A stretch of DNA of 64,000 nt, taken from positions 62,001 to 126,000 of the forward strand of contig NZ_LMDU01000014.1 in assembly GCF_001425165.1 (NCBI RefSeq). The letters run 5' to 3'. Shown one piece after another: positions 27,677-64,000 of this stretch (position 1 is the stretch's first letter; each line of letters starts with the position of its first letter). Below the pieces are notes generated by a model. That model did no database searches. It was not told where the DNA came from and worked only from the letters and a program-made list of their open reading frames with translations. The position numbers were made by a program, and so were the translations under genes. The DNA comes from Pelomonas sp. Root405 (GTDB taxonomy: Bacteria; Pseudomonadota; Gammaproteobacteria; Burkholderiales; Burkholderiaceae_C).

Positions 27677-28003
27677 TCACGGAGCAGGAGGCGACTTTCT
27701 CTTGAATCCAAGTCGTCCTACCAAGCGCACCAATTGCGGCTTGAAAGGAAGCAGTAGCAGGCATCCGGTGGCAAAGACGGCTGCGCTCGCTATGACGAAG
27801 ATGCCGAAAACCATGAGGAACGTGGTCACCGTGTGACGGAAATAGTCCGCACCCTGCGCCCCGTAGGCGGCAAACGCTACGCCAGCGAAAAGCGGAATTG
27901 CTAACCACGATCGACCTCGTGCTTTGACAATGAACGTCAATGAGACGACCAGCCCAATCAGGCCAATGAAGGCAAGCGGGAAGACTAGTGGCTCTGGTCC
28001 CAT
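27677..28003 (-). CDS. Small membrane protein of unknown function
   Basis: The 108-residue protein has three predicted membrane spans (LVFPLAFIGLIGLVVSLTFI, AIPLFAGVAFAAYGAQG, TVTTFLMVFGIFVIASAAVFA) and a basic C-terminus (GFKRKSPPAP). ATG 28003 is chosen because the upstream extension (to 28102) is polar and unlike a protein N-terminus. Base composition is lower in GC than the flanking operons. No family is recognised. Confidence 0.55.
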   Translation of the reverse strand: MGPEPLVFPLAFIGLIGLVVSLTFIVKARGRSWLAIPLFAGVAFAAYGAQGADYFRHTVTTFLMVFGIFVIASAAVFATGCLLLLPFKPQLVRLVGRLGFKRKSPPAP

Positions 28004-28073
28004 TTGGAGCCGACTGTAGAAGTGACTGGAACCCCGTAGGCGTTTCGACTGATTGGGATGCGAAGTCTTGCCG

Positions 28074-28448
28074 TCATCCCTCCCTCCACTGGGCGTCGAC
28101 ACCGCGCCTGCGCAGCTCAGACTTCAGCGCTTCGAGTGAGGCAAACCAAGGATTTGGATCAAGCGCACACGACTCGAATATGGCTAGGGCAATTGGATCG
28201 GCGATGCCCGGCTCTGCGGGTACAAGCTTGTACGCCCCAGATGAGAACCAAGCGAGATGACCGAGCAGCCGACCCCGGCGGTTCGGGGTGACGAAGTCAA
28301 CGCGCAACGGCTGCCCATGTTGGTCATAGAACGACACGGTGCCGCTTTCCACATCAACTCCTTCAAACGCGAGTTCCGCGTCTTTCACGCTGGCGAAGAG
28401 GCGCAGAGTGCCTCCCTCCTCAAATGCAAGCACTTCAGGGAACTTCAT
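28074..28448 (-). CDS. Hypothetical protein, 124 aa
   Basis: This soluble protein starts MKFPEVLAFEEGGTLRLFAS and is rich in short beta-prone segments (SGTVSFYDQHGQPLRVDFV). The second half is helical (SLEALKSELRRRG). No signal peptide or known catalytic motif is visible. It belongs to the lower-GC islet between the glycan operon and GspA. I do not recognise its function. Confidence 0.55.
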   Translation of the reverse strand: MKFPEVLAFEEGGTLRLFASVKDAELAFEGVDVESGTVSFYDQHGQPLRVDFVTPNRRGRLLGHLAWFSSGAYKLVPAEPGIADPIALAIFESCALDPNPWFASLEALKSELRRRGVDAQWREG

Positions 28449-28532
28449 CGTGAGATTTGATGTTTGAGATGAGGAACGCCCAAGGCTCTAGCTAGGAACC
28501 CCTTAAAAATCTTATTTGAACCGATGCTGAGC

Positions 28533-29441
28533 TTATTGGCCGTATAGGGTTTCAAGTTGGACCATCGCATTTTTCCATCGTTCATATACTTGGGTGTTTT
28601 TGTCTTTATATTGGCGCTCTATAAAGCCAAAGATGTATTCTCGGGTGTCTTTAACTAAAGAATCGTGAATGCCTGTAATGGTGTATGTCCGAATTGCGCC
28701 ATCGACTGGAAATATATCTGCCAACTGGACCGCATCCATGCAAGCTAAAAATCCATTTAGATAGTTCTCTAGTTTGGATCCTGTTGCTCTGCAAAACTCT
28801 GGAATATTCAGCGGCTTGCCCGTTTGATATGCCAGCACGCAGGCGTAAGCCAATGTGTTTGCCGCAAGTGACGACGTTGATAAAAATGTTTTAACTATGA
28901 CTGGGTCAATGCTCTTTGACGTTGTGGTTGATGCGGGCGTTACAGGCTTTATCCCCAGTGACTTCGTGGCATCAATCAGTTTAGTTTCGAGTTGATCCAG
29001 GCGTGTCGGTAGATCACCCAAAGAGCCGTGCAAAAATTCGGTATGGGTACTAATTGCGGAAAGCGTGGCAGATAGCGTTGCGAGATTGGCGCTGATTGAC
29101 GATGACGCGCCTTCAATTAGTTCTGCACTTCGCTGCGCTGATTTCGTAGTTTGGGTACTCAAATTTACTTGATTGACGATCTGATCTCGAGAAGCTTTCA
29201 CCTCGTCTGATACGGCCCCTATACTGCCCAGACTTTTGGAAAGTCCGTCGTTTGCGATGAACGAGTAGAAAATTGCAACCAGACCAAGTACAAGAGAGGT
29301 CATCGTGGCCGCGTTGCTTAAAAACTCAGTGAACTTCGGTTGCAAGGTCCAACGGTCGGTGGCAATTGCAATTATTACTAATGTTAAAATTACCGAGCAA
29401 TAGAAGAAGTGCAATCGCAGTTTATGAAGTGCGTGGTCCAT
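28533..29441 (-). CDS. Two-span membrane protein with a coiled-coil/cytoplasmic helical domain
   Basis: This 302-residue protein has two N-terminal membrane spans (FFYCSVILTLVIIAIAT; MTSLVLGLVAIFYSFIA). A long region rich in Ser, Gln and Leu follows (about residues 70-165) that looks like a coiled coil resembling the stalk of methyl-accepting proteins without their hairpin motif. A soluble C-terminal domain includes a Cys-containing helix. Codons and GC content are clearly unlike the neighbouring operons, so it is probably acquired. Such two-span/coiled-coil proteins occur as defence effectors, but nothing here proves that. Confidence 0.7.
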   Translation of the reverse strand: MDHALHKLRLHFFYCSVILTLVIIAIATDRWTLQPKFTEFLSNAATMTSLVLGLVAIFYSFIANDGLSKSLGSIGAVSDEVKASRDQIVNQVNLSTQTTKSAQRSAELIEGASSSISANLATLSATLSAISTHTEFLHGSLGDLPTRLDQLETKLIDATKSLGIKPVTPASTTTSKSIDPVIVKTFLSTSSLAANTLAYACVLAYQTGKPLNIPEFCRATGSKLENYLNGFLACMDAVQLADIFPVDGAIRTYTITGIHDSLVKDTREYIFGFIERQYKDKNTQVYERWKNAMVQLETLYGQ

Positions 29442-52637: not shown

Positions 52638-53129
52638 TCAGCGCCGGCGCAGGTAGTCGACGAAGTCGAAGCGCTGGCCGTTGGCGCTGGTGTGCGCTTC
52701 GCGCAGCGCCTCGGCGAACTGCTCGCGCGGCCAGGCGGGGAAGTGCCGATCCGCGTCGGGGAAGGCTGCGTCCACTTCCGTCAACGCAAGCTTGTCGGCC
52801 AGCGGCAGGGCCAATGCGTAGATGTCGGCGCCGCCGATGACGCAGACTTCCGCGTCGTCGCAGGCGGCCAGCGCCGCATCGAGCGTGCTGAACACCTCGG
52901 CGCCGGGCAGCTCGCTGACCGAGCGGCTGACGACGAGGTTGCGGCGCCCCGGCAGCGGGCGGAACTTGGCCGGCAGTGATTCCCAGGTCTTGCGGCCCAT
53001 GACGACGGGCTTGCCGGTGGTCAGCGCCTTGAAGCGCGCCATGTCCTCGGGGATGCGCCACAGCAGCGCGTTGTCGCGGCCAATGGCGCCGTCTTTCGCA
53101 ACGGCGGCGACGAGGGTGATCGAACTCAT
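52638..53129 (-). CDS. folA: Dihydrofolate reductase
   Basis: This 163-residue NADPH-dependent enzyme regenerates tetrahydrofolate. It has [24 protein letters not shown] (with the catalytic-loop Trp and the active-site acidic residue in PEDM), [19 protein letters not shown] and [16 protein letters not shown]. The ATG overlaps the thyA stop (ATGA), the usual thyA-folA arrangement. Since thyA is truncated here, folA may have lost its normal promoter and depends on read-through from the inserted element, an inference. Confidence 0.95.
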
Positions 53130-53483
53130 ACCGCGACGGGCGCCTTGATCGCGGGATGCGGGTCGTAGCCGCTGAGCTCGAAGTCCTCGTACTCGTAGTC
53201 GAAGATGGACGCCGGCCGGCGCTTGATCGTCATGGTCGGATAGTGCCGCGCATCGCGGGCCAGCTGGGTCTGCACCTGTTCCACGTGGTTGTCGTAGATG
53301 TGGCAGTCGCCGCCGGTCCAGATGAAGTCGCCGAGCTGCAGGTCGCATTGCTGGGCCAGCATCATGGTCAGCAGCGCATAACTCGCGATGTTGAAGGGCA
53401 CACCCAGGAAGATGTCGGCGCTGCGCTGGTAGAGCTGGCAGGAAAGTTTGCCGTCCGCCACATAGAACTGGAAGAACGCGTGG
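53126..53483 (-). pseudogene. thyA: Thymidylate synthase, C-terminal fragment cut by the inserted element
   Basis: This fragment encodes the last 118 residues of ThyA, from [21 protein letters not shown] to [14 protein letters not shown], collinear with the E. coli protein from His147 to the end. Immediately before His147 the sequence stops matching: relatives have PPC (active-site Cys146) but here the codons read CCA CAA AAC. The catalytic Cys and all the N-terminal half are missing from the window. A short frame starts at ATG 53545, but its first 21 residues come from the element. This copy cannot make an active enzyme. Confidence 0.92.
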
Positions 53484-53541
53484 TTTTGTGGTGCAGGCGT
53501 CCAACGAACCGTTTCAGTACACATGTGCAAGGCGGGAGCGG

Positions 53542-54708
53542 TCACGGTGGAACTTGTGCCGCAGTCTGCTGTACCTCGACTCCAAGGGACATGACCGCGA
53601 GATTGACGTAGTGCCGTAGTGTATCTAGTTCTTCATGACCTGCTACGTCCAAAACAAATCTTAGTATAGTTGCTATGTGCAATTCATCCAATTTGCCGGT
53701 GGCTTGGAGTTCACGGACTTTGCGCATTGTGAGTTGATAAAGATAATATGCTCGCGCGCGGTGAAGGTGAGAATCAATTCCTGCGAGTGCAAAGAAATTC
53801 GCAAAGAGCTTGCTAATCCATTGTTGACTTAACCTTCTGCCGTGTACGCTCAAGAAAATGTTTTTGTCGAGAGCGGATGCTTTGTAGTCGTCAGATTCAA
53901 AGTATTCGCGCGTGTCGGTTAGGAGGGAGAGAGGCGGTAACACCGTTCGAATCTTTCCCCCTTTTCCGTTTACTTTCATTTTTGCGACGCCTTCACGGAA
54001 GGTAGCTATCTTGGCCCAGCTCGGAAATGAAGTTCTAGTCAATGTCAGAATTTCGCTGTTTCTAAGTCCGACTTCCTTTGCCCATCGCCAGATAAGCATA
54101 TCGCGAGCAGCATGAGCCTTCCCATGCGCTGCAATCATTTGTGCCACTTGCTCGATTTCCTTGGTGGAGGGAGGGTCTAGGTAAGGTTCTTTCTTTACAC
54201 GTAGATTTGCGTTCTTTGGGGATATTCCGCCCTCCGCGCATTCCTCTTTCCACGTGCCGACGTACTTGTCGAACTGCTTATTAACGTATGCCCAGCGCAG
54301 AAGCATAAATAAGCAATTCAATTTGCTCTTTGTAGTCTTGCTCCTATTTCCTTTTGCCGCGTCCGCGTTTCGCCAGATTCTGATATCTGAGATGGTTGAT
54401 TCCCTCCAGCCCTTTCTGGAGCATTCTTCGTAAATGTGTTTAAAATATGAATTGACTGTGACCGCGTAGGCGCCTACCGTAGATTCGCCCACTTTCCCTG
54501 CCACAAGAAGGTGGCGAAACCAGTTGTTCACGGTATGGTCAGGTTTTCCGTCAATGGAAAATTGGAGTGGTATTAGAAAGCTCGCGCCTTCTATCTTCGC
54601 CGGGTGCGTTGGAAATATCAGCTTCGGACTGTATGTTTTGTATGAGATGATATTAGGCGCTTGGGTTTGTGCCGATATCGCTGACGAGTTTGAGACCTTT
54701 GTTTCCAT
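53542..54708 (-). CDS. Tyrosine recombinase (site-specific integrase), complete catalytic site
   Basis: This 388-residue recombinase has an N-terminal SAM-like core-binding region (about 60-165) and a catalytic domain from about residue 185. Arg216 is in GLRNSEIL, Lys in [10 protein letters not shown] (about 250), the HxxR box in [11 protein letters not shown] (314-317), His358 in [10 protein letters not shown] and the nucleophile Tyr367 in RHYVNL. All canonical positions are therefore filled. It is the last gene of the module, next to the thyA junction, and overlaps the coiled-coil gene by 56 bases. Probably the main strand-exchange enzyme. Confidence 0.85.
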
Positions 54709-55192
54709 CGTTTATCTGCCTTAATAGGTCAGTGAGCCGCCTATCCAGTGATTCTTCCTTTTGTACCGAACGCTTCAAGTCATCTCGCGAGGTTTGAAGC
54801 TCGGCGAGTAGTTCTTGGTAGCTCGCGGCTATTGCGTCGCGCTCTCGAGTTAATTCCACTACTTGGAGTTTGAGTAAATTGCAGGAATCCGCCGTTGGCC
54901 TAGCGTCTCCTCCTGGCCGGCCCGCGCGGAGGCGTTTGCACCTTTTGACAAGCCCATCCGCCCGTGCAAGTTCGCGAACGACGTCGTCTCTTCCAAGCTT
55001 GCGCTGCTGGGTGGTCGACACCGAACTCTTGCTTCCAATCAGTGCAATGCCCAGGTCCGCTGCAGTCCATACTCTGTACTCCGCCATGCAAGTCGGATAG
55101 CTTCCCTTGGGAAGTTGCCGAACCCCGTGGAGCAGCTCCTCGAGGACGTCATTCCGCAGCGATAGCTGTTCAAGTAAATTGCCTCTAGCCAT
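54653..55192 (-). CDS. Small coiled-coil protein of the recombinase module (TnpC-like)
   Basis: This 179-residue protein has an N-terminal helical part (NLLEQLSLRNDVLEELL), a segment with a possible DNA-binding helix-turn-helix (WTAADLGIALIGSK), and a long coiled coil (LLKLQVVELTRERDAIAASYQELLAELQ, about residues 105-165). Size, position and coiled coil resemble Tn554 TnpC, an accessory protein of the transposition module; the similarity is in layout, not proven homology. It starts one base after the preceding recombinase. Confidence 0.7.
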   Translation of the reverse strand: MARGNLLEQLSLRNDVLEELLHGVRQLPKGSYPTCMAEYRVWTAADLGIALIGSKSSVSTTQQRKLGRDDVVRELARADGLVKRCKRLRAGRPGGDARPTADSCNLLKLQVVELTRERDAIAASYQELLAELQTSRDDLKRSVQKEESLDRRLTDLLRQINDGNKGLKLVSDIGTNPSA

Positions 55193-55193
55193 G

Positions 55194-57149
55194 TCAGAGG
55201 TGGCCCTTCAACTTGTCTACTACAGCTGCCAGGTTCTTCTGACGTTCTGCGGCAAGTGCCCGCTGTTCGCTTGACGTGCTTGGGCTTGTGGCGACAGCGA
55301 TGGTTTTCTCCAGGCAGTCCGTTAGGTAGGGCAGGCGAGTCTTGTGCGTCGCTAGGAACCTGCACCCAGAGCAGATGCCGGGGCTCGAGGCTTCGGAGTT
55401 TGGTCTGCCGTCGAGGTCAACTGCTCCCACGCCTTCATTGAGACATCGCGCCCGCCTGATGTGGTTCTGACCAGAGCCACAGAAGCAGTAACCCCAGGCA
55501 TTTGGCTTTGCGACAATTCCGGTCTCTAGGAAAATCCTCGCCGCTGTTTTCTCAGGTGCTTCTGTTGAAGCACGCATACTGGTGCGCAACCTATGGGTGA
55601 GCCTCTTCAAGCGCTCACTTTGTTGGCCGGCATATTCCATCGACCCCGCCGCTACGCTTTCTACTATTTGGCTGGTCAACACGCGTGATGCCGCAGTGGA
55701 CCACTCGATGAAATCCGCGTTCGCTAAATAGACGCTGGTCCGCACGAAATCAAAGTGGAACATCGCGACGGATAACGCTGCGACCGGAAGTTCGAAGCGA
55801 TTGGCCCACAAAACGGCGGCGAAACGCCTGAACTGTCTAGGAGTAAAGTTCCATCGAAACTGGTTGCTAGCGGAGTCGGTCGCCATTGGCAAATTTGCCA
55901 ATGCAGCCAGCAAATCCAAGGTCGGGCCATCGAATGCTTTGAGTGTTACTCTTCCCGTGATTCTTTTGGACTGCTTAGCTAGTAAAAATTTGGAAGACAT
56001 CCTGAGGCGCCGAGCGCGGTATAACTCCTCGAAAAGTAGAATTCCGCGAGCGATTGTTGGATGCACCGGAGAACTTCGAGTTTGACGGTAGTTCTTCTCG
56101 ATGTATCTCGCGGCCCATTGACCAGACTCCTCTGTGCCGCTTATACAGCCAGCTTCCAACCCGCTAATTTCTCCAGGCCGAGCCAAGGTTAATGAGGAAA
56201 TGACGACAAAAAAGGCGTGTGGCAGAAGTTTCTCTGTAATGGTTACGAATTGAAGAACTGGCAATGAATCGTCTTTTCGCTCCCTGCCTTTGTAATCAAT
56301 ATCGAAGTTGATGCCTGCAATCTTTGCGGCGCGAACTATCTCGCGATAAATCGCTACCTTCACACGCTTGCAAGGCGCCGCTTGTGCTTTCAAGATGAGC
56401 GGTCCGAGTTGTTCTAGCCACACTATTGCGGTCCGCAACATAGCAGCCCCAACCTCTAGCGGTATTAGTGGCGAACTGTTCTGTCTGGTGGAGCCGTAAG
56501 TCTTCGCGAGGGTGTGTGCTCCGTTTGGGAACGGATTGACCCCTAGCTCAAATGGAAGTAAATCACGTGCCTCCCAAAGATGTATGAGCGGATTTAAAAG
56601 CTTAAGCACTCTGTCGGTAGAGGCGCTGGCGTCATTCGCTAGCGTCTCGTGGGAAGTATTTGATGCTTGGTCGCCGTCTGATTCGTCCGCGTCGATATCA
56701 TCGGCGCGCACTTCTGTCTCCAGCGGACATCCCGGCTCGGGCGACCCGATGGTCAAGCGTTTCGAACAGTGTTTTGCATACAGGTCCGCGACCTCGGGGG
56801 TGACATCTTGAACGTCAAAATTGTTTTGAACCAACCACCGAAAATAGGCCACAAAATGCAGCGCGTGGTAGTACATCGTTGAGCCATCGCGAATCCCGTA
56901 GCCGTGAGTCGCTCCTACTCGTTCCAATGCAACGTTCATGCTGTCCCGCCAAAGGGAATGGCTGGGGTCGTCAAGATAGAATCCGTTCCCTAAGTCTTGG
57001 TGCAGGCTGAAAGACAAGCGTCCTAAGTCAGGAGCCCGCGTAAAAATCCAAATCGCATCATCAATCTGGCTATGCATCCAGGGTGGTTGAACAGCCTTCG
57101 CAGCGTGATTTGAATCGAGGGCAGATTTCTGTTGAGTGGGCATCGCCAT
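55194..57149 (-). CDS. Large tyrosine recombinase-like protein (TnpB-like)
   Basis: This protein is about 651 residues. The C-terminal half has motifs similar to an integrase: Arg in LTLARPGEISGLEAG, an RxxR segment in FTPRQFRRFAAVLW and HFDFVRTSVYL with His and a possible Tyr. A Cys cluster near the C-terminus (YCFCGSGQNHIRRARCL, ICSGCRFLATH) could bind zinc. It is long like Tn554 TnpB (about 630 residues). ATG 57149 with a GGAG site is chosen over 57173. It begins two bases after the upstream recombinase stop. Confidence 0.72.
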   Translation of the reverse strand: MAMPTQQKSALDSNHAAKAVQPPWMHSQIDDAIWIFTRAPDLGRLSFSLHQDLGNGFYLDDPSHSLWRDSMNVALERVGATHGYGIRDGSTMYYHALHFVAYFRWLVQNNFDVQDVTPEVADLYAKHCSKRLTIGSPEPGCPLETEVRADDIDADESDGDQASNTSHETLANDASASTDRVLKLLNPLIHLWEARDLLPFELGVNPFPNGAHTLAKTYGSTRQNSSPLIPLEVGAAMLRTAIVWLEQLGPLILKAQAAPCKRVKVAIYREIVRAAKIAGINFDIDYKGRERKDDSLPVLQFVTITEKLLPHAFFVVISSLTLARPGEISGLEAGCISGTEESGQWAARYIEKNYRQTRSSPVHPTIARGILLFEELYRARRLRMSSKFLLAKQSKRITGRVTLKAFDGPTLDLLAALANLPMATDSASNQFRWNFTPRQFRRFAAVLWANRFELPVAALSVAMFHFDFVRTSVYLANADFIEWSTAASRVLTSQIVESVAAGSMEYAGQQSERLKRLTHRLRTSMRASTEAPEKTAARIFLETGIVAKPNAWGYCFCGSGQNHIRRARCLNEGVGAVDLDGRPNSEASSPGICSGCRFLATHKTRLPYLTDCLEKTIAVATSPSTSSEQRALAAERQKNLAAVVDKLKGHL

Positions 57150-57151
57150 AG

Positions 57152-59242
57152 CTATATCTCCAGGAAGTGACAAAAGCCAGCGTCAAATTCGCGCCTCGCG
57201 GCACGCTCAATGAAAGGCAGTCGGTTCGCCATCAAACTGACTGCCGCTTTCTCGAGCAAGGCTGTAGCCCAAGCAAGCTCGGGCATGCATCGCGTCATCC
57301 AATGCTCTCGGCGGGTCATAATAAGTATTTCGCTGGCGCGCTCCAGGCTCCACTTTGTTAGATACCCGTCCTTGCAGAGGGAGTCAGTTAGGTGAACAAC
57401 GAACGTCGCCGTGGAATCGCCCAGCACATAGTCGTCGTCTTCGTCTTTCTCAGGCGTAGCGAGGGCTTGGCTCGCTAGTTGCAAGGCTTTCTCTTGAAAC
57501 TGCCGCTGGTATGAAGACAGGCGAAGTCGTTGCAAGAGCTGGAACTGATACGCCGAAGTTGCATTCGATAGATGCGTATGTCCTCCTAGCGTTGCAACAA
57601 TTAGCGAGTCGGGACTTTTGCTAAGGTCCTTTAGCATCAGCACGCAAGGTCGTATAGCGGAAGGAGTAAAGGCGAAGCTGTCCGATATCCCTTCATCTCT
57701 TAGGAAATAGTCAAGCCGCTTGGCCAAAAAATGTCCGTTTGCTTTGGAAACCGATGACTGGTAGCGAAAGACGAAAAGGGGTGCACTTACTTTTTCGACT
57801 GGCCGGACCAGGCGCGGTTGGGACTCAGGTCGTTCGGGGATTTGAAGTAGCTGCGCCTCCCTTTTCTGTATGTCTTCCAAATATGCTTTTCGCTGGCGAG
57901 CGGCGGCATCGGATATGGCAGCCATGGCGTGGGTGGCTGGCACCATGTCGTTAAATGGCTTGGTGCTCAATACCGAGATTACATACTTTCCGTTCGCACG
58001 TTCTTTTATTGCTCCGACCACGACGGCGTCGTTGATGTCTGGAGCAGGGTGGTAGCCAAGCGGGATTTGGATATCGCAAAGGGGAGCGACATTCAAAGCG
58101 CTTTCGCACGCAGCAAGGAGCATCCCAGCAGCGACTGCATCGGGACTTGGAGCGAACATCGCGTCCAACTCAAACCTGCCCACGACTTGCGAGTACAAAA
58201 GTTCGCAGAAGGTCTTGTCCAAGGTGTCTTTGGCAGCGGGTGGCATGCCGCCGTAGTAGGTTTCGATGCACAGCAGGGCGTGAGGGATGAAGTCGCGCTT
58301 ATGCCGCCTAAATTTCCCAGCCAAGGTTTTCTTATGCGTCTTATCTCCAAGTAGCACCGCTTGAATCTGTGCGGCAATCTCCGGGTCCCCGGCAGATAGG
58401 AGGTCGGGCGTGGCTCGATATATTTCTTCCCAGTCCCGAAACTTCTGCGAGGCCACGGATTGAATCGTTTCAATGCACCGCTCAGCCAAACGCTTTAAGG
58501 CAAGCACTACTTCCTCGGGTGTTTTTGGTGCCAACTCAGGGAAATTTGCGGCGAGAGCGACCAAGGCCTCTGTGAGCTCTTCTCGGTCATTTGGGTCGAG
58601 CTCTTCCGCCAACTGGCCGAGAGTCTTTGTTATCAATTCTTCCCCCGCATCATCCTTTGGGAGACCAGTGGCAGTGTGCTCTGGCTTTTTAGTCGGCCTG
58701 ACTTGCTGAATGAGACTGCGCCGTTGCCGTGAACGCTTGTGGGAATTCGATGGAATCGTCGGGACGGATAATTTCGAACAAACGCCCATCCTATTAAGTT
58801 TCAGAAGGATTTGACGGACATATCCTAGGCGTTGACCGGCGGAGCGTGGTGCATCAATATGCGATTGGATGACAGCACCCGCCCATGCATTGATAGCGGT
58901 CTGCCATGCTTTCCGTTCATGCGAAGACGCGTTGGCGTCAAATGGGTGCAATTCCGGCAGGTTTTTATCCAGCCATTCGCCAAATCGGCGAATCTCGTTG
59001 GCGCGAGAGCGCGCGCCGTATAACGAGCCGGCAGCCCAGTCCCCCACTAACTCAAAACAGGCGTCGAATACTCGGCTTACGATGAACCTGCGCATGGCGC
59101 CAAGTCGCAGTAGAGTGGGATTCTTCTGCTCGGGCGGATGGATGAAAAAAATCAGGTTCTCAGCATTGACAACCCCATACGGGTATGTTCCGCCTTCCTG
59201 GCGCCGCGCTTCGAGAAAATGGCGATGCTCGAAACGAGTCAT
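57152..59242 (-). CDS. Large recombinase-like protein, degenerate active site
   Basis: This 696-residue protein is the first gene of the module. The N-terminal region (RSRANEIRRFGEWLDKNLPELHP) looks like a core-binding domain. A C-terminal domain has ESALNVAPLCDIQIPLGYHP, where the box-I Arg is apparently Asn. SFAFTPSAIRPCVLML stands for box II and ATLGGHTHLSNATSAYQF for the GH...Y box. It may be a non-catalytic partner or have a shifted active site. Assignment rests on motif order and operon context. Confidence 0.65.
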   Translation of the reverse strand: MTRFEHRHFLEARRQEGGTYPYGVVNAENLIFFIHPPEQKNPTLLRLGAMRRFIVSRVFDACFELVGDWAAGSLYGARSRANEIRRFGEWLDKNLPELHPFDANASSHERKAWQTAINAWAGAVIQSHIDAPRSAGQRLGYVRQILLKLNRMGVCSKLSVPTIPSNSHKRSRQRRSLIQQVRPTKKPEHTATGLPKDDAGEELITKTLGQLAEELDPNDREELTEALVALAANFPELAPKTPEEVVLALKRLAERCIETIQSVASQKFRDWEEIYRATPDLLSAGDPEIAAQIQAVLLGDKTHKKTLAGKFRRHKRDFIPHALLCIETYYGGMPPAAKDTLDKTFCELLYSQVVGRFELDAMFAPSPDAVAAGMLLAACESALNVAPLCDIQIPLGYHPAPDINDAVVVGAIKERANGKYVISVLSTKPFNDMVPATHAMAAISDAAARQRKAYLEDIQKREAQLLQIPERPESQPRLVRPVEKVSAPLFVFRYQSSVSKANGHFLAKRLDYFLRDEGISDSFAFTPSAIRPCVLMLKDLSKSPDSLIVATLGGHTHLSNATSAYQFQLLQRLRLSSYQRQFQEKALQLASQALATPEKDEDDDYVLGDSTATFVVHLTDSLCKDGYLTKWSLERASEILIMTRREHWMTRCMPELAWATALLEKAAVSLMANRLPFIERAARREFDAGFCHFLEI

Positions 59243-59865
59243 CGGCGCGCTCCTCTACGCACGCTGCAGTCGGAGCGCCTAGGCGTGCACTGCGCGTCGG
59301 CGCGCGAGGCATGCAGTACTTGCGCCAGAGGGCATGGCGAGTGGACTCTGGGGCCGGCGAATACCGGCGTCCGCCTGGTTCTAGGTAGCGCAACGGTCGC
59401 GTCAAGGCGACAAGCAGACAAGCGCATGCAGCAGCTCCACATTCGACGAATGTTTCATCGAAGGGAAGCCACCCTCTCTCGCTTGAGGCAGCGCCAATCC
59501 CGGACAGAGCCGGTGGGACATCCTTTGGCTGTCCCCTCTCTCGGCGCTTCAGTGAGAAGCGGTGGGTCTATAGATGCGAGCGCAGGGCCCCCGAGCCATC
59601 TCCATCAACGCGCAGACCTGCGTGCATCTGCTGCGGATGAGACCTTCCAGACCGAGAAAAGTGCGGGCACTTTATTGCCAGCTGAGTCGTCGGTTGGCCT
59701 AGCCTTGTACCGGAAATCAGGTTCAAGACAGGCGACCTTGAGCGGCGGAGTACTTACCCCATCGACGGCGGGGTCAGTGCGGCTGCGGCGGGAACGAAGT
59801 TCTTGCACCGCTTCCCACAGTTGCTCATGTGAGTCAGAATCGGCTTGTTTACTATTGACAGCAAG
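59243..59865. other. Gene-poor region upstream of the recombinase module
   Basis: These 623 bases lie between divergent genes. Open frames exist on both strands (for example 59605-59988 minus) but have no recognisable protein features and overlap each other. It probably holds the recombinase promoter and element regulatory DNA. No inverted copy of the left end at 53484 was seen here. Confidence 0.4.
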
Positions 59866-60309
59866 ATGTTCTTGACCTTTGACGGCCTTGAAGGCCGCGT
59901 TCCTCCAGTGATGCTTGAGGCAGGGTTTCAGTACTGGAGCGCTGCTGTGCTTCCGAGGCAGGTGCCGTGGTATCTCCTGAGCATCCAACGTGAGGGAAGT
60001 GCCCGACGGCAGGAGACGGTATTCATCGCCAGCGAGTCGATGCTGGTCGAGCTTCTAGGCGACGTCGACGTCAGTTCAGTTACGGGTCTCATGCGTTTCG
60101 ACGCCCGGCTAGACGTACTTGGCGCTTGGGACTTTGTGCAGGTCATCGAGGTATGGTGCGATTGGCTTCTTCCGGAAGGGTGCCGGCTTTTCTTCAGGCT
60201 GCAAGGAGAGCGCGGCCTTCGGGACGCGTCGCTGCGACGTACCGAGGCGCATGACATAGGGATGCTTTTGGCAAAGATGCCGCCTTTGGTTCCGTCGGCG
60301 CGGCCATGA
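59866..60309 (+). CDS. Hypothetical protein coupled to a HAD-like gene
   Basis: This 147-residue soluble protein starts MFLTFDGLEGRVPPVMLEAGF and has beta-strand/helix alternation (WYLLSIQREG, TVFIASESMLVELL, VIEVWCDWLLPEGCRLFFRLQG). No signal, membrane span or known motif is seen. The ATG at 59866 is preferred over a TTG at 59845. Its stop overlaps the next gene's start (ATGA), indicating a two-gene unit. Function not recognised. Confidence 0.6.
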   Translation: MFLTFDGLEGRVPPVMLEAGFQYWSAAVLPRQVPWYLLSIQREGSARRQETVFIASESMLVELLGDVDVSSVTGLMRFDARLDVLGAWDFVQVIEVWCDWLLPEGCRLFFRLQGERGLRDASLRRTEAHDIGMLLAKMPPLVPSARP

Positions 60310-60863
60310 GTCAGCAAAGCCCGTCTGCGCCCGGTGCAATTTATTTGGGCATCAGTGGTGTTCTGCATCCGAGCCGGTCCCTGTACGAGCTCGCAGAAGC
60401 AAGGTCGCCAGAAGACGACGGGCATACCGACTACGAAGCGGCTCCAATTTTGGACAGACTTTTGTCGGGCTGGCCGCGGATTCGCATCGTGCTCACGTCA
60501 ACCCAGCCGCGACAGGATGGATTGCACAACGTGCTTATCAAGCTCGGAGAAGGTCTTGCGTCACGCGTGATTGGGCACACCTACGAGGACCTCACTACGA
60601 AAGCAAAGCTAGGACCCCGACAGCGGCCGCTATCCGTCGATGATTACTGGCGCTGCAACAAGTCTGACATCGTGCGCCTCCACCAGCGATGGCTACGTCC
60701 AGTTGCTTGGGTGGCAGTGGACGACGAAACGATACTTTGGACGCCGGACGAGCGCCTCAACCACCTCGTGGCGGTTGACGGTTGTAAGGGCCTCTTGGAC
60801 CCTGCGGCGCAAGACCGGTTATTGACCTTGCTCTACTGCAACTTCGGTTCTCCGAAAACCTAG
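60306..60863 (+). CDS. HAD-fold protein (Swiss-army-knife RNA-repair HAD type) lacking the catalytic aspartates
   Basis: This 185-residue protein follows the small HAD domain often annotated as HAD_SAK: AIYLGISGVLHPSRS, RIRIVLTSTQPRQDG, DDYWRCNKSDIVRLH and WVAVDDETILW. In the family the first motif is normally DxDGVLHP, with the nucleophile Asp and the acid/base Asp. Here these are Gly and Ser, so the enzyme is probably inactive as a phosphatase or has become a binding module. The motif-IV acidic pair (DDE) is kept. It is coupled to the upstream unknown gene. Confidence 0.68.
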   Translation: MSQQSPSAPGAIYLGISGVLHPSRSLYELAEARSPEDDGHTDYEAAPILDRLLSGWPRIRIVLTSTQPRQDGLHNVLIKLGEGLASRVIGHTYEDLTTKAKLGPRQRPLSVDDYWRCNKSDIVRLHQRWLRPVAWVAVDDETILWTPDERLNHLVAVDGCKGLLDPAAQDRLLTLLYCNFGSPKT

Positions 60864-60867
60864 GCGC

Positions 60868-61179
60868 TCATTCCAAGGTGCTGCGACCGTACCGGCTCTC
60901 GACACGACCAGCTAGTTCCTCAAACGTCAGGTCAACACCGCGAGCCAAGCGGAAAAGGACGCTGAGGGTCGGTTGCTTGAGACCCACCTCCACCAAGGAG
61001 ACGTATGGCCGGTCGAGACCGGCCTTGGCCGCCAAGTCCTCTTGGGAATAGCCAAGCTCCGCCCGTCTTGCTTTCAGCTCGACACCTAGTGCCTCTACGA
61101 GGCCTTGAATTCTGCTTGGCTTCACAAGCCAGCAGTGTTGTTGTTCTGTTGCCAATAGACACGTGTCAATTGACGGCAA
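60868..61179 (-). CDS. XRE-family helix-turn-helix regulator
   Basis: This protein is up to 103 residues. The C-terminal 70 form a classic HTH_3 domain: VELKARRAELGYSQEDLAAKAGLDRPYVSLVEVGLKQPTLSVL. Such proteins usually repress their own promoter or a neighbour. The first 18 residues are doubtful; a GTG at 61125 would start right at the domain and would leave the palindrome at 61165-61174 in the promoter. It is divergent from the BPSL0761 gene. Confidence 0.83.
   Translation of the reverse strand: MPSIDTCLLATEQQHCWLVKPSRIQGLVEALGVELKARRAELGYSQEDLAAKAGLDRPYVSLVEVGLKQPTLSVLFRLARGVDLTFEELAGRVESRYGRSTLE
61165..61174. promoter_or_regulatory. Perfect 10-bp palindrome between divergent XRE and BPSL0761 genes
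   Basis: GTCAATTGAC lies in the short region between the XRE regulator and the divergent gene. A symmetric site of this kind is a plausible operator for the regulator. It falls inside the longest XRE frame, which supports the downstream GTG start. Confidence 0.3.
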
Positions 61180-61201
61180 AATTCTTTATCAGGGGACGCA
61201 G

Positions 61202-61432
61202 ATGACCACGCCGGATGAACGCACAAGGGCGCTCCTACAGACGAGGGAGTTCCTACTTCAGCTTGTGGCGTCGGACCAGATACCCAGCGTCTCTGAAGAG
61301 GTGCGGCGGCAAGCGCGCCATCTACTGCGGCACTATCCCGGACCGATGGAACTTAACTGGGCTCACCGCGCGTTGCCCATGCACTTCGGAGAGGTTTGGC
61401 CATCGCAGCTTTCTGGACCGAACGAGGTATAG
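61202..61432 (+). CDS. BPSL0761-family protein
   Basis: This 76-residue protein reads MTTPDERTRALLQTREFLLQLV and then VRRQARHLLRHYPGP, the typical pattern of the BPSL0761 family in Burkholderiales (ERTRAV..TREFL..L...VR.QAK.LLRHYP). Function is unknown. Members are often on plasmids and islands beside UmuD/ImuA-type or XRE genes. ATG 61202 is preceded by AGGGGA. Confidence 0.82.
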   Translation: MTTPDERTRALLQTREFLLQLVASDQIPSVSEEVRRQARHLLRHYPGPMELNWAHRALPMHFGEVWPSQLSGPNEV

Positions 61433-61472
61433 CGGACGTCCAGAGGTCACGACGTGGCGTCGGGCCGCTCTG

Positions 61473-64000
61473 TCATTTGAAGTCCCTGCTCTTCGCTCGT
61501 AGCCCCCGTATCAACGGCGTGTGGTCTTCAAGGTAGCCAGCGATGAGGTTACGGCCTCCTTCTTCGCACTGCCACCGTCCCTTCACACCCAGCAGCCTAG
61601 AGTGCAAAGCCACCTGTCGGAAGCGCTCAAAGACGCCGGAATAGACGATGACTTGAATGTCGCCGAACTCGTCTTCCAGCGAGATGAAGGTTACCCCCTT
61701 GGCGGTCTCCGGCCTTTGTCGTCCGGTGACCTTGCCGATGGCATAGACCTGTCGGCCGTCTGGGGCGTCGCGGAGGTCGGCGGATGTCATGAGTCGCTTC
61801 CCTTCGAACCGCGGGCGTAGCAGCGCAAGCTCGTGCGTCCGCAGGGTCAGGCCCAGCGAGGCGTAGTCCCAAAACACCTCTTCGCTCTCTGATGCTTGTT
61901 CGAGCTCCAGGTAGTCCTCGTCAACAGGCGCATCGCTGAGCAGCGGTGGATTCAAACGCGGCGCTGCCGCGTCCCAGACTTGCTGACGACGGTGACCGCT
62001 GAGGCTCATCAGCGCATCGCCAGAGGCGAGGGCGGTCATCTGCGCTCGGTTCAAGCCTGCACGGAGCGCTAGGTCTTCGGCGCTATCGAACGGCGCGGCC
62101 TGGCGCGCAGCCGTGATGGCCTCCGCAGAAGTCTTCCTGAAATGTTCGATGAGCCGCAAGCCCAGCCGAACAGCATGGCCGCGACCCTGGGGCTCCAACA
62201 CGCAGTCCCATTCCGAGCGCATTACGTCGGCCGGCAGCACGACAACTCCATGTCGCTTGGCGTCCTGCACCAGCTGGCTTGGGCTGTAGAAGCCCAACGG
62301 CTGAGAGTTGAGCATCGCAGTCAGGAACTCGGCGGGATGGTGATGCTTTATCCAGCAACTCTGCCAGACCAGCAGCGCAAAAGAGGCCGCGTGCGATTCT
62401 GGAAAGCCGTAGGACGAGAAGCCTTGAATCTGGGCAAAGATTGCCTCGGCGAACTCCGGCTCATACCCACGCGCGACCATGCCATCGACGATGCGGGAAT
62501 AGTGCTTGTCCAGCCCCCCTTTTCTCTTCCAGGCGGCCATGTCTCTCCGCAGTTCATCGGCCTGGCCGCCGGTGTAGCCCGCTGCAACCATCGCAATTTG
62601 CATCACCTGTTCCTGAAACAACGGGATGCCAAGCGTGCGTTCGAGTACGGCCTCCAGCTCCTTGCTGGGGTAGGTTACTGCTTCCTTGCCTTGTCGCCGG
62701 GCCTCATACGGCCCAACCATGCCACCTTGAATCGGTCCGGGCCTGACCACGGCCACCTGGATGACTAGGTCGTAGTACTTGCGTGGCCGCGTCACCGGCA
62801 GCTTCGCGCGCTGTGCCCTCGACTCGATTTGGAACACACCAATCGTTTCTGCGGCGCAAATCATGTCGTAGGTGGCTGAACAGTCTGGCGGGATGTCCCG
62901 CACTGAGAACTCGTAGCCCTTGGTCAGGCTGATGAGTTCGCACGACTTGCGAATTGCGGTGAGCATGCCCAAGCCGAGCACATCGACCTTCAGGAGCTTC
63001 ATCGCGTCAATGTCGTCCTTGTCCCACTGGATGACCGTGCGGTTTTCCATCGAGGCGTTTTCAACCGGAACGATGCGGGTCAACGGGCCTTGCGTCAGGA
63101 CAAAGCCGCCTGGATGCTGGCTCATGTGCCTGGGCATGCCCAAGATTTGCCGCACCATGTCGATGAGCTGCCGGACAGCGAGGTCCGTGATGTCAAGGCC
63201 GACTTCCACCAATCGCGTCTCGTCCAGCGTCTCGAGGTCCCACCACGCGTAGTTACCGCTCAGGGTCTCAAGCATCGGCAGCTCGAAGCCCAGCGCCTTG
63301 CCGACGTCCTTTAGGGACGACTTCACCCGGTAGCTGGTGACCACCGCTGTTAGGGCAGCTCTGTCGCGCCCATACTTGCTGTAGATGTGCTGAATGACCT
63401 CCTCGCGCCTCTGATGCTCGAAGTCAACGTCGATGTCCGGCGGTTCGTCGCGCTCCTTGGAGATGAACCGCTCGAACAGCGTCGACATGCGCGCCGGGTC
63501 GACCTCGGTGATGCCGCAGCAAAAACAAACGACGCTGTTGGCGGCCGAGCCGCGACCTTGGCAAAGAATGTTGCGGCTGCGAGCGAACATGACCACGTCG
63601 GCCACGGTCAAGAAGTAGTGCTCGTACTTGAGGTCTGAAATTAGCTCGAGCTCGCGCTCAATTTGGTCGTTGATGGCAGCCGGAATGCCATCGGGCCAGC
63701 GACGGCCCGCGCCTTGGTAGGTGAGCTGGCGCAAGTAGCTGGTGGCAGTTTCTCCTTCAGGCACCACCTCCGATGGGTACTGGTAGGCAAGTTCATCTAA
63801 GCTGAAGTTGCACCTGTCTGCGACCTTCAGCGTCTCGGCCAACAGGTCATCTGGGAAGGTGCGGGCCAGACGGCCCCGTGTGCGCAGATGTCGCTCTGCG
63901 TTGATGTCGAGGGCCTTTCCGCACTGCGTGAGCGGCTTGCCGATGCGCGTCGCGGTCATGACGTCCAACAGGGGCTTGCGACTGCGGCGATGCATCGTCA
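61473..64000 (-). CDS. dnaE2: Error-prone DNA polymerase DnaE2 (ImuC), 5' end outside window
   Basis: The C-terminal 842 or so residues of a C-family polymerase alpha subunit are present. The visible N-terminal end MHRRSRKPLLDVMTATRIGKP is the end of the PHP domain. The palm has GRGSAANSVVCFCCGITEVDP and PPDIDVDFEHQRREEV, with catalytic Asp residues. Then come ARPGPIQGGM-type thumb motifs, an HhH region and an OB-fold, ending in SRDF, the usual DnaE2 C-terminus. DnaE2 acts with ImuA and ImuB in SOS-induced translesion synthesis; those genes would lie beyond the window edge. Its place in the foreign segment suggests a mobile mutagenesis cassette. Confidence 0.93.
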   Translation of the reverse strand, partial: TMHRRSRKPLLDVMTATRIGKPLTQCGKALDINAERHLRTRGRLARTFPDDLLAETLKVADRCNFSLDELAYQYPSEVVPEGETATSYLRQLTYQGAGRRWPDGIPAAINDQIERELELISDLKYEHYFLTVADVVMFARSRNILCQGRGSAANSVVCFCCGITEVDPARMSTLFERFISKERDEPPDIDVDFEHQRREEVIQHIYSKYGRDRAALTAVVTSYRVKSSLKDVGKALGFELPMLETLSGNYAWWDLETLDETRLVEVGLDITDLAVRQLIDMVRQILGMPRHMSQHPGGFVLTQGPLTRIVPVENASMENRTVIQWDKDDIDAMKLLKVDVLGLGMLTAIRKSCELISLTKGYEFSVRDIPPDCSATYDMICAAETIGVFQIESRAQRAKLPVTRPRKYYDLVIQVAVVRPGPIQGGMVGPYEARRQGKEAVTYPSKELEAVLERTLGIPLFQEQVMQIAMVAAGYTGGQADELRRDMAAWKRKGGLDKHYSRIVDGMVARGYEPEFAEAIFAQIQGFSSYGFPESHAASFALLVWQSCWIKHHHPAEFLTAMLNSQPLGFYSPSQLVQDAKRHGVVVLPADVMRSEWDCVLEPQGRGHAVRLGLRLIEHFRKTSAEAITAARQAAPFDSAEDLALRAGLNRAQMTALASGDALMSLSGHRRQQVWDAAAPRLNPPLLSDAPVDEDYLELEQASESEEVFWDYASLGLTLRTHELALLRPRFEGKRLMTSADLRDAPDGRQVYAIGKVTGRQRPETAKGVTFISLEDEFGDIQVIVYSGVFERFRQVALHSRLLGVKGRWQCEEGGRNLIAGYLEDHTPLIRGLRAKSRDFK

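Follow-up and report, generated by a model that had tools for sequence, protein, structure and literature searches.

A probable site-specific island splits thyA at its active-site codons and brings a complete thyA in Pelomonas sp. Root405

This analysis concerned a 64,000-nucleotide stretch of the genome of Pelomonas sp. Root405 (the window), in which the host thymidylate synthase gene, thyA, is represented by its 3' part. Very probably, a site-specific island of 46.4 kb has been inserted into thyA at the codons for Cys146 and His147 by a tyrosine recombinase, bringing with it a complete thyA, and because the element carries this gene of its own the host survives the disruption of an essential one. 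The window corresponds to C14:62001-126000, C14 being the 802-kb contig (NZ_LMDU01000014.1) that bears both halves of the host thyA as well as the full copy, in a genome of 5.81 Mb in 18 contigs. The enzyme specified by thyX is unrelated to ThyA, and no match to thyX was found in this genome (the control search was positive in 6 of 14 known genomes), so that an essential gene is split in a genome without a thyX match.

An open reading frame at 53126-53545 on the minus strand matched only positions 147-266 of the 266 in the Pfam family Thymidylat_synt (PF00303, E 7.1e-53). The 3' part of the host gene proper, from the core described below to the stop codon, occupies 53126..53483 (minus strand), and a PF00303 search of the genome located the 5' half (Pfam positions 1-150) 46.4 kb away on the same contig, at C14:161878-162324 (minus strand). 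On the coding strand, the thyA end in the window reads ...CACCACAAAAC CAC GCG TTC, the 5' half stops at ...CCC TGC CAC G|TC TTT GTG, with element DNA after the G, and the corresponding stretch in most relatives of the same genus is ...CCC TGC CAC/CAT GCG/GCC TTC.... Comparison of the two junctions revealed a 5-bp core, CCACG on the coding strand, present as CGTGG at 53479..53483 and again outside the window at C14:161886-161890, which takes in the third base for Cys146, all of the His147 codon and one base beyond it (E. coli numbering). Since CCACG is common to both halves, the break lies within 5 bp of the active-site Cys-His codons. The initial annotation had proposed a mobile element at the active-site codon of thyA and had suggested extending the contig in search of the missing 5' part with its catalytic codons; both are borne out, the latter by the CCC TGC at the far junction. 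Its finer reading needs amendment, as the break is indeed at the Cys-His codons, but the Cys146 codon is retained whole in the 5' half, and the reading frame of the 3' part continues into the element, to 53545.

When the halves were joined over one copy of CCACG, an intact reading frame free of internal stops resulted. It specifies a ThyA of 271 residues that shares 92-96% identity with its counterparts in 14 genomes of the same genus (ten of the alignments cover residues 1-271, and four begin between residues 5 and 10). Of the 227 columns that are unanimous in 12 genus members, only 2 were altered in the joined halves, which points to a recent insertion. Relatives do not all share the core: among the 59 of their thyA genes examined, 22 have the exact CCACG at the corresponding place. 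Immediately downstream lies host folA, the gene for dihydrofolate reductase (52638..53129, minus strand; PF00186, E 7.8e-49), the ATG of which overlaps the thyA stop (ATGA), and folA was within 1.5 kb 3' of thyA in 22 of 30 relatives examined.

The element so delimited is 46,407 bp in length, including one copy of the core. Its left part fills the window from 53484 to 64000 (64000 being C14:126000) and it goes on to C14:161885, with a GC content of 0.61 compared with 0.68 in the fetched flanks. In the direction of the coding strand, the order is the host thyA 5' half, the element thyA, cargo genes, a recombinase operon (proteins of 696, 659, 179 and 388 aa), the host thyA 3' half, and folA. 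The end of the element at 53484..53545 (minus strand) is in frame with the thyA 3' part and holds a possible GTG start that overlaps the integrase stop (GTGA). Circularization of the element ends gives CACAAA-GACGTGGT-TTTGTG around the core, and an inverted pair at least as long as these 6-bp arms arose close to the core in 0.6% of shuffles (p 0.006). The element thus shows an identical short core at its two ends and an empty site equal to the sum of its flanks, as expected of a site-specific element. This integrase was not found in any other element, so the ends are defined by one copy and one rebuilt empty site. Pfam scans of 28 element proteins recognised no conjugation genes. Elsewhere in the window, a patch of low GC (0.50-0.55 at 28-30 kb; 27677-29441) holds three open reading frames amid high-GC genes and is possibly another small insertion.

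The full ThyA of the element has 264 residues (C14:160794-161585, minus strand; Pfam positions 1-265 matched at C14:160797-161582), and its gene lies about 0.3 kb inside the far end, in the same direction as the host gene. The protein can be aligned over its full length with the 264-residue ThyA of PDB entry 1aob, which we take to be that of E. coli, and keeps the active-site PCH, yet it is only 63% identical to the ThyA of its host. Its best non-self match in 398 Pseudomonadota genomes, among the matches listed, was 69% identical. In a tree of 80 ThyA sequences the joined host halves fell inside the clade of their genus, and the element ThyA grouped on a long branch with the ThyA of another family (support 100/100). 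That a break in thyA demands compensation had been foreseen in the initial annotation, which considered a second thymidylate synthase, a thyX, or an element-borne replacement of the N-terminal half; the compensating gene is indeed on the element, but as a whole thyA rather than an N-terminal replacement. A simple promoter scan near this gene gave no sigma-70-type candidate (0 found versus 0.6 expected).

The codons at the attachment site read CCACT in the element thyA, and the right half-site is also different. Compared with 60 ThyA sequences not borne by elements, the most divergent 15-residue window of the element protein starts at residue 148 (rank 1 of 250), while the control, the joined host ThyA, has rank 94; in the other elements tested, the highest rank of a window near the site was 1 (G206, G928, G955), 8 (G1028), 9 (G909), 13 (L142) and 38 (G999). 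Local recoding at the attachment site, as a form of self-immunity, was considered and set aside, since against the six nearest relatives unanimous positions were changed in 3 of 11 cases within residues 146-160 and in 20 of 151 elsewhere (p 0.19). With recoding thus unsupported against these relatives, the difference at the attachment site seems to have been inherited from the donor lineage.

At the window end of the element, a tyrosine recombinase gene (53542..54708, minus strand) has its stop about 60 bp from the junction, as had been supposed when a recombinase module was noted beside the broken thyA. The 388-aa product matched PF00589 (E 1.1e-10) and PF02899 (E 3.2e-6); its best NCBIfam match was XerC (TIGR02224, E 8.1e-17), far below the cut-off of that model, and it also matched PDB 4a8e (E 5.6e-5). 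Upstream of it, on the same strand, are genes for proteins of 179 aa (54653..55192), 659 aa (55194..57173) and 696 aa (57152..59242). None of the three was assigned to a family, the first and last having only sub-threshold matches. The 179-aa protein is perhaps a coiled coil. From a reading of sequence motifs, the 659-aa protein may be a degenerate tyrosine recombinase and the 696-aa protein is possibly a degenerate recombinase as well; single-sequence AlphaFold models of the two were unusable (pLDDT 33 and 37, respectively). Relatives of the integrase were confined to its own genome among 300 genomes of the order (E <= 1e-20), and none were found in the genome_contigs collection or in phages. 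The 659-aa protein likewise matched only its own genome among 369 genomes of the class, and neither it nor the 696-aa protein had relatives in viral contigs. Plasmids gave partial matches to proteins of the operon at 22-30% identity overall, including nine plasmid records with partial matches to the integrase (22-26%).

Within the window, the cargo comprises a 154-aa open reading frame without a Pfam match (59845..60309, plus strand), an HAD_SAK_2 protein (60306..60863, plus strand; PF18143, E 1.8e-14), a small helix-turn-helix regulator (60868..61179, minus strand; PF01381, E 3.4e-14), and a DnaE2-type error-prone polymerase (61473..64000, minus strand), which scored 1215 bits against NF004225 over its 841-aa in-window part and which in full is a reading frame of 1032 aa ending past the window (L034:11474-14572). 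Further cargo includes SRAP, the large subunit of exonuclease VII, a UvrD-like helicase, a large helicase-nuclease, a 2OG-Fe(II) oxygenase, DUF72, a response regulator, and Pfam-matched DUF3268 and Hypoth_Ymh proteins, as well as defence genes, namely QatA, QatC and QatD and parts of a CBASS system (two CD-NTases, a SAVED-PDDEXK effector, HORMA and TRIP13). ImuA, ImuB and QatB are named from gene position, the ImuB candidate having no Pfam match. Two arrangements on the element may be recorded: a CBASS-like locus in which two CD-NTase genes flank one SAVED effector gene (L036:3410-8724), and an 1116-aa protein in which an Exo_endo_phos domain is fused to LigD (phosphoesterase, ligase, polymerase; L035:2406-5756).

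The combination of a split thyA and a full thyA recurs. The element ThyA matched 297 of the 398 Pseudomonadota genomes searched, and, among the matches listed, all 17 other multi-match genomes and nine single-match, lower-scoring genomes were re-examined with PF00303. At least eight of the 398 carried the combination (G000, which is the host, G206, G909, G1028, G999, G1007, G928 and G955), a lower bound since other single-match genomes were left out of the re-examination. All three thyA pieces were on one contig in six of the eight, and on two contigs in G955 and G999. In Pfam positions, the breaks fell near 147-150 in the host, 172-185 in six genomes, and 207-213 in G206. Within the host family, 11 of 299 genomes gave no thyA match and 11 gave several; four of the latter (G000, G020, G025 and G206) had already been examined, and re-examination of the remaining seven brought the family's cases of a split thyA with a full copy to G000, G206 and G1209. 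Counting the host, seven others and G1209, nine genomes have two thyA halves clear of contig ends, and a full thyA was present in all nine. No second genome broken at Cys146-His147 was seen among those re-examined. Several multiple or partial matches were discarded as lying at contig ends or as not having the form of an insertion. Partial thyA extras in six genomes (G005, G020, G025, G806, G908 and G1130) were not counted because each lies about 50 bases or less from a contig end (judged from the start coordinate for G1130); the second match of G1094 was separate and full-length; G1150, G1161, G1164 and G1224 had weak matches to Pfam positions 51-225; and on re-examination with PF00303 the two-match entries of seven f253 genomes and G1038 proved to be single ThyA genes. 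Two loci are unusual in structure. G1209 (L164, L165, L172, L173) has one full and three partial thyA genes, probably nested, and in G928 (L110, 4723-11003) about 5.5 kb separates the thyA halves, with a full thyA inside and no integrase match in the two open reading frames scanned; this locus is possibly a deletion derivative.

Four of these genomes (G1028, G909, G1007 and G999) share an operon 3' of the thyA 5' half, consisting of an integrase (409-416 aa), a protein of 779-1410 aa that in G1028 has an integrase domain close to its end, an integrase-like protein of 689-711 aa, a protein of 158-169 aa, and a full thyA (277 aa). Insertion is near codons 172-173, a position established to the base only for G1028. 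When genome_contigs was scanned with the 699-aa family, 33 loci were recovered, 25 of them titled Pseudomonas and three judged to be from the same genomes as G909, G999 and G1007; the Pseudomonas-type elements as a whole comprise loci L109, L111, L114, L119, L116 and L125-L157. A ThyA was encoded beyond the query recombinase gene in 30 of the 33 loci, and the 5' part of thyA lay upstream in 25. The three without a downstream ThyA are L131, where the contig ends, L150 and L152; the eight without an upstream thyA are these last two and six loci in which the contig starts too near (L125, L129, L131, L139, L155 and L157). In L150 and L152 it is nadE that is split, a full nadE lying between its 5' and 3' parts (genome searches with PF02540). 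Such nadE-splitting operons are represented by L150, L152 and loci L174-L179, from Pseudomonas sp. S31 and P. cichorii. Elsewhere in this group, a replacement thyA has itself been cut and is followed by another full ThyA, in nested fashion (L148:11246-13061), and in a Marinobacter locus (L156, from 12436) the replacement ThyA belongs by type with the host gene of G1007 (82% over 188 residues) and the broken host half with that of G1028, whereas several Pseudomonas loci have the opposite arrangement.

The proposed insertion may be weighed against three other explanations. The sharp GC change at the junction, in a genome assembled into 18 contigs, could suggest that unrelated contigs had been joined and that the truncated thyA is an artefact, but there is next to no chance of this, as both halves and the full copy are on a single 802-kb contig and the halves rejoin over five common bases to an intact reading frame with 92-96% identity to the genus. 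A chimera would not restore thyA, which argues for precise insertion. Of the two outcomes that the initial annotation regarded as fatal to its proposal, this chimera was one, and the other, the occurrence in many genomes of the same truncated thyA with no element present, was not seen either, such a split occurring only in the host among the genomes re-examined. A highly improbable alternative is that the element ThyA is chance cargo, the host living by thymidine salvage or on a ThyA assembled from two half-proteins, a notion favoured by the fact that both halves are still open frames. The constant company of a full gene with the split one (nine of nine genomes), the ThyA beyond the recombinase gene in 30 of the 33 sister loci, and the holding of nadE instead by the two nadE-splitting relatives all speak against chance. 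In Pseudomonas putida KT2440, where an island splits tmk, the tmk halves are non-functional and the island gene is essential (PMC10653934), and survival on a split ThyA protein is judged unlikely.

It is rather unlikely, though clearly less so than these, that this element and the Pseudomonas thyA elements are of one recombinase family, only the site having shifted. The target gene and the replacement strategy are alike, and each of the two modules combines a single clear integrase with two long proteins and a small one, as multi-protein tyrosine recombinase modules accompanying a split essential gene and its full replacement. However, profile comparisons of the four operon proteins with the Pseudomonas families, made with a single sequence on one side, detected no relation beyond weak similarity in the catalytic region of the integrase (E 0.0025, prob 12), in contrast to the operon of G206, which is clearly related to the Pseudomonas one and sits at another thyA site (about Pfam 207-213). 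Gene order also differs, thyA directly following the small operon gene in the Pseudomonas type and lying at the opposite end from the operon in the Root405 element. As the modules have no detectable relation beyond the integrase catalytic region, the strategy seems to have arisen at least twice; a deep common origin is conceivable because the comparisons were single-sequence on one side.

Insertion with replacement has precedents. The island of P. putida KT2440 supplies a dNMPK (PP_1964) in place of the split tmk, and is called a first-case example (PMC10653934). Like the element described here, it is a large island that splits an essential gene of the dTMP pathway and supplies that function from its last gene, with tyrosine recombinases nearby, and in both cases the gene 3' of the split gene overlaps it. 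They differ in that the P. putida target is tmk and the replacement a T4-related dNMPK, whereas here the target is thyA and the replacement a close-type homologue; the function of the P. putida replacement has been proven by genetics. The constant neighbours of the tmk island are a TetR regulator, two recombinases and one protein of unknown function (PMC10653934). The Root405 element has a gene for the same function adjoining one end, but no TetR match and a single recognised recombinase among the 28 element proteins scanned, so that the tmk-type neighbour set is not present. Mobile elements in the chromosomal thyA have also been reported for Acinetobacter baumannii RCH52 and A. variabilis; these are ICEs, some with resistance regions, and the accessible portion of the source mentions neither a codon position nor a replacement thyA (PMC12904642). 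In Clostridioides difficile RT027, according to the portion available, an incoming thyA likewise disrupts the resident thymidylate synthase gene, which in that case is thyX rather than thyA; that portion describes neither the element nor a recombinase (PMC6700662). In the titles and abstract openings listed, with few subscription journals included, no report was found of an element at the Cys146-His147 codons of thyA, of recombinase operons in which thyA is a regular member, or of elements that split nadE. The view taken in the initial annotation, that no such element had been described, therefore stands for the codon, the thyA operons and nadE, but both the splitting of an essential gene with an island-borne replacement (PMC10653934) and elements in thyA (PMC12904642) were already published.

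The association of several proteins with one integrase also recalls other elements. Tn554-type transposons and the gamma-mobile-trio (GmtX, GmtY, GmtZ) combine several tyrosine recombinases with a small protein and insert site-specifically, the latter with defence cargo, and the Root405 element resembles this general description in its possible multi-recombinase module, site-specific insertion and defence genes. No NCBIfam match to families of either group, including GmtX, GmtY and GmtZ, was obtained, in a library that may lack the Gmt models.

The preferred reading, precise insertion by the element-borne recombinase, suggests the following course of events, in which transposition and expression of the element are inferred. 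The 388-aa integrase, with the three other operon proteins as likely helpers, would recombine an attP of the form CACAAA-8 bp-TTTGTG with an attB in thyA. The element ThyA would then be expressed, perhaps from the host thyA promoter upstream, and at the opposite end the recombinase operon may read out through the GTGA and ATGA overlaps, keeping folA expressed. The island ThyA presumably comes from a distant lineage and, differing at the attachment sequence, would not itself be a target. Loss of the island thyA without precise excision would bring thymidylate starvation, which would stabilise the island, and an addiction-like stability without a toxin is predicted.

Integrases often spare their target, by landing at the end of a gene and restoring it, or by using tRNA genes. 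The Root405 element instead disrupts an essential enzyme at its active site, for which it compensates with an entire spare gene. Whether this exemplifies a general class of islands, which insert at the catalytic codons of essential metabolic genes and bring along a divergent copy that is not a target, we regard as an evenly balanced question; the class would include three sites in thyA, nadE and the tmk of the published island, and at least two recombinase modules without relation to each other would have arrived at it separately. The nadE cases and the unrelated recombinase modules support such a reading. If it is correct, the gene swap would provide a landing site conserved across hosts and make the island hard to lose, and foreign enzymes would displace housekeeping ones, including in nested rounds that hit the replacement copies. 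Should the class prove general, it would explain puzzling duplicate and split housekeeping genes in annotated genomes, offer conserved attachment sites usable as landing pads, and represent a route by which core enzymes are replaced through horizontal transfer.
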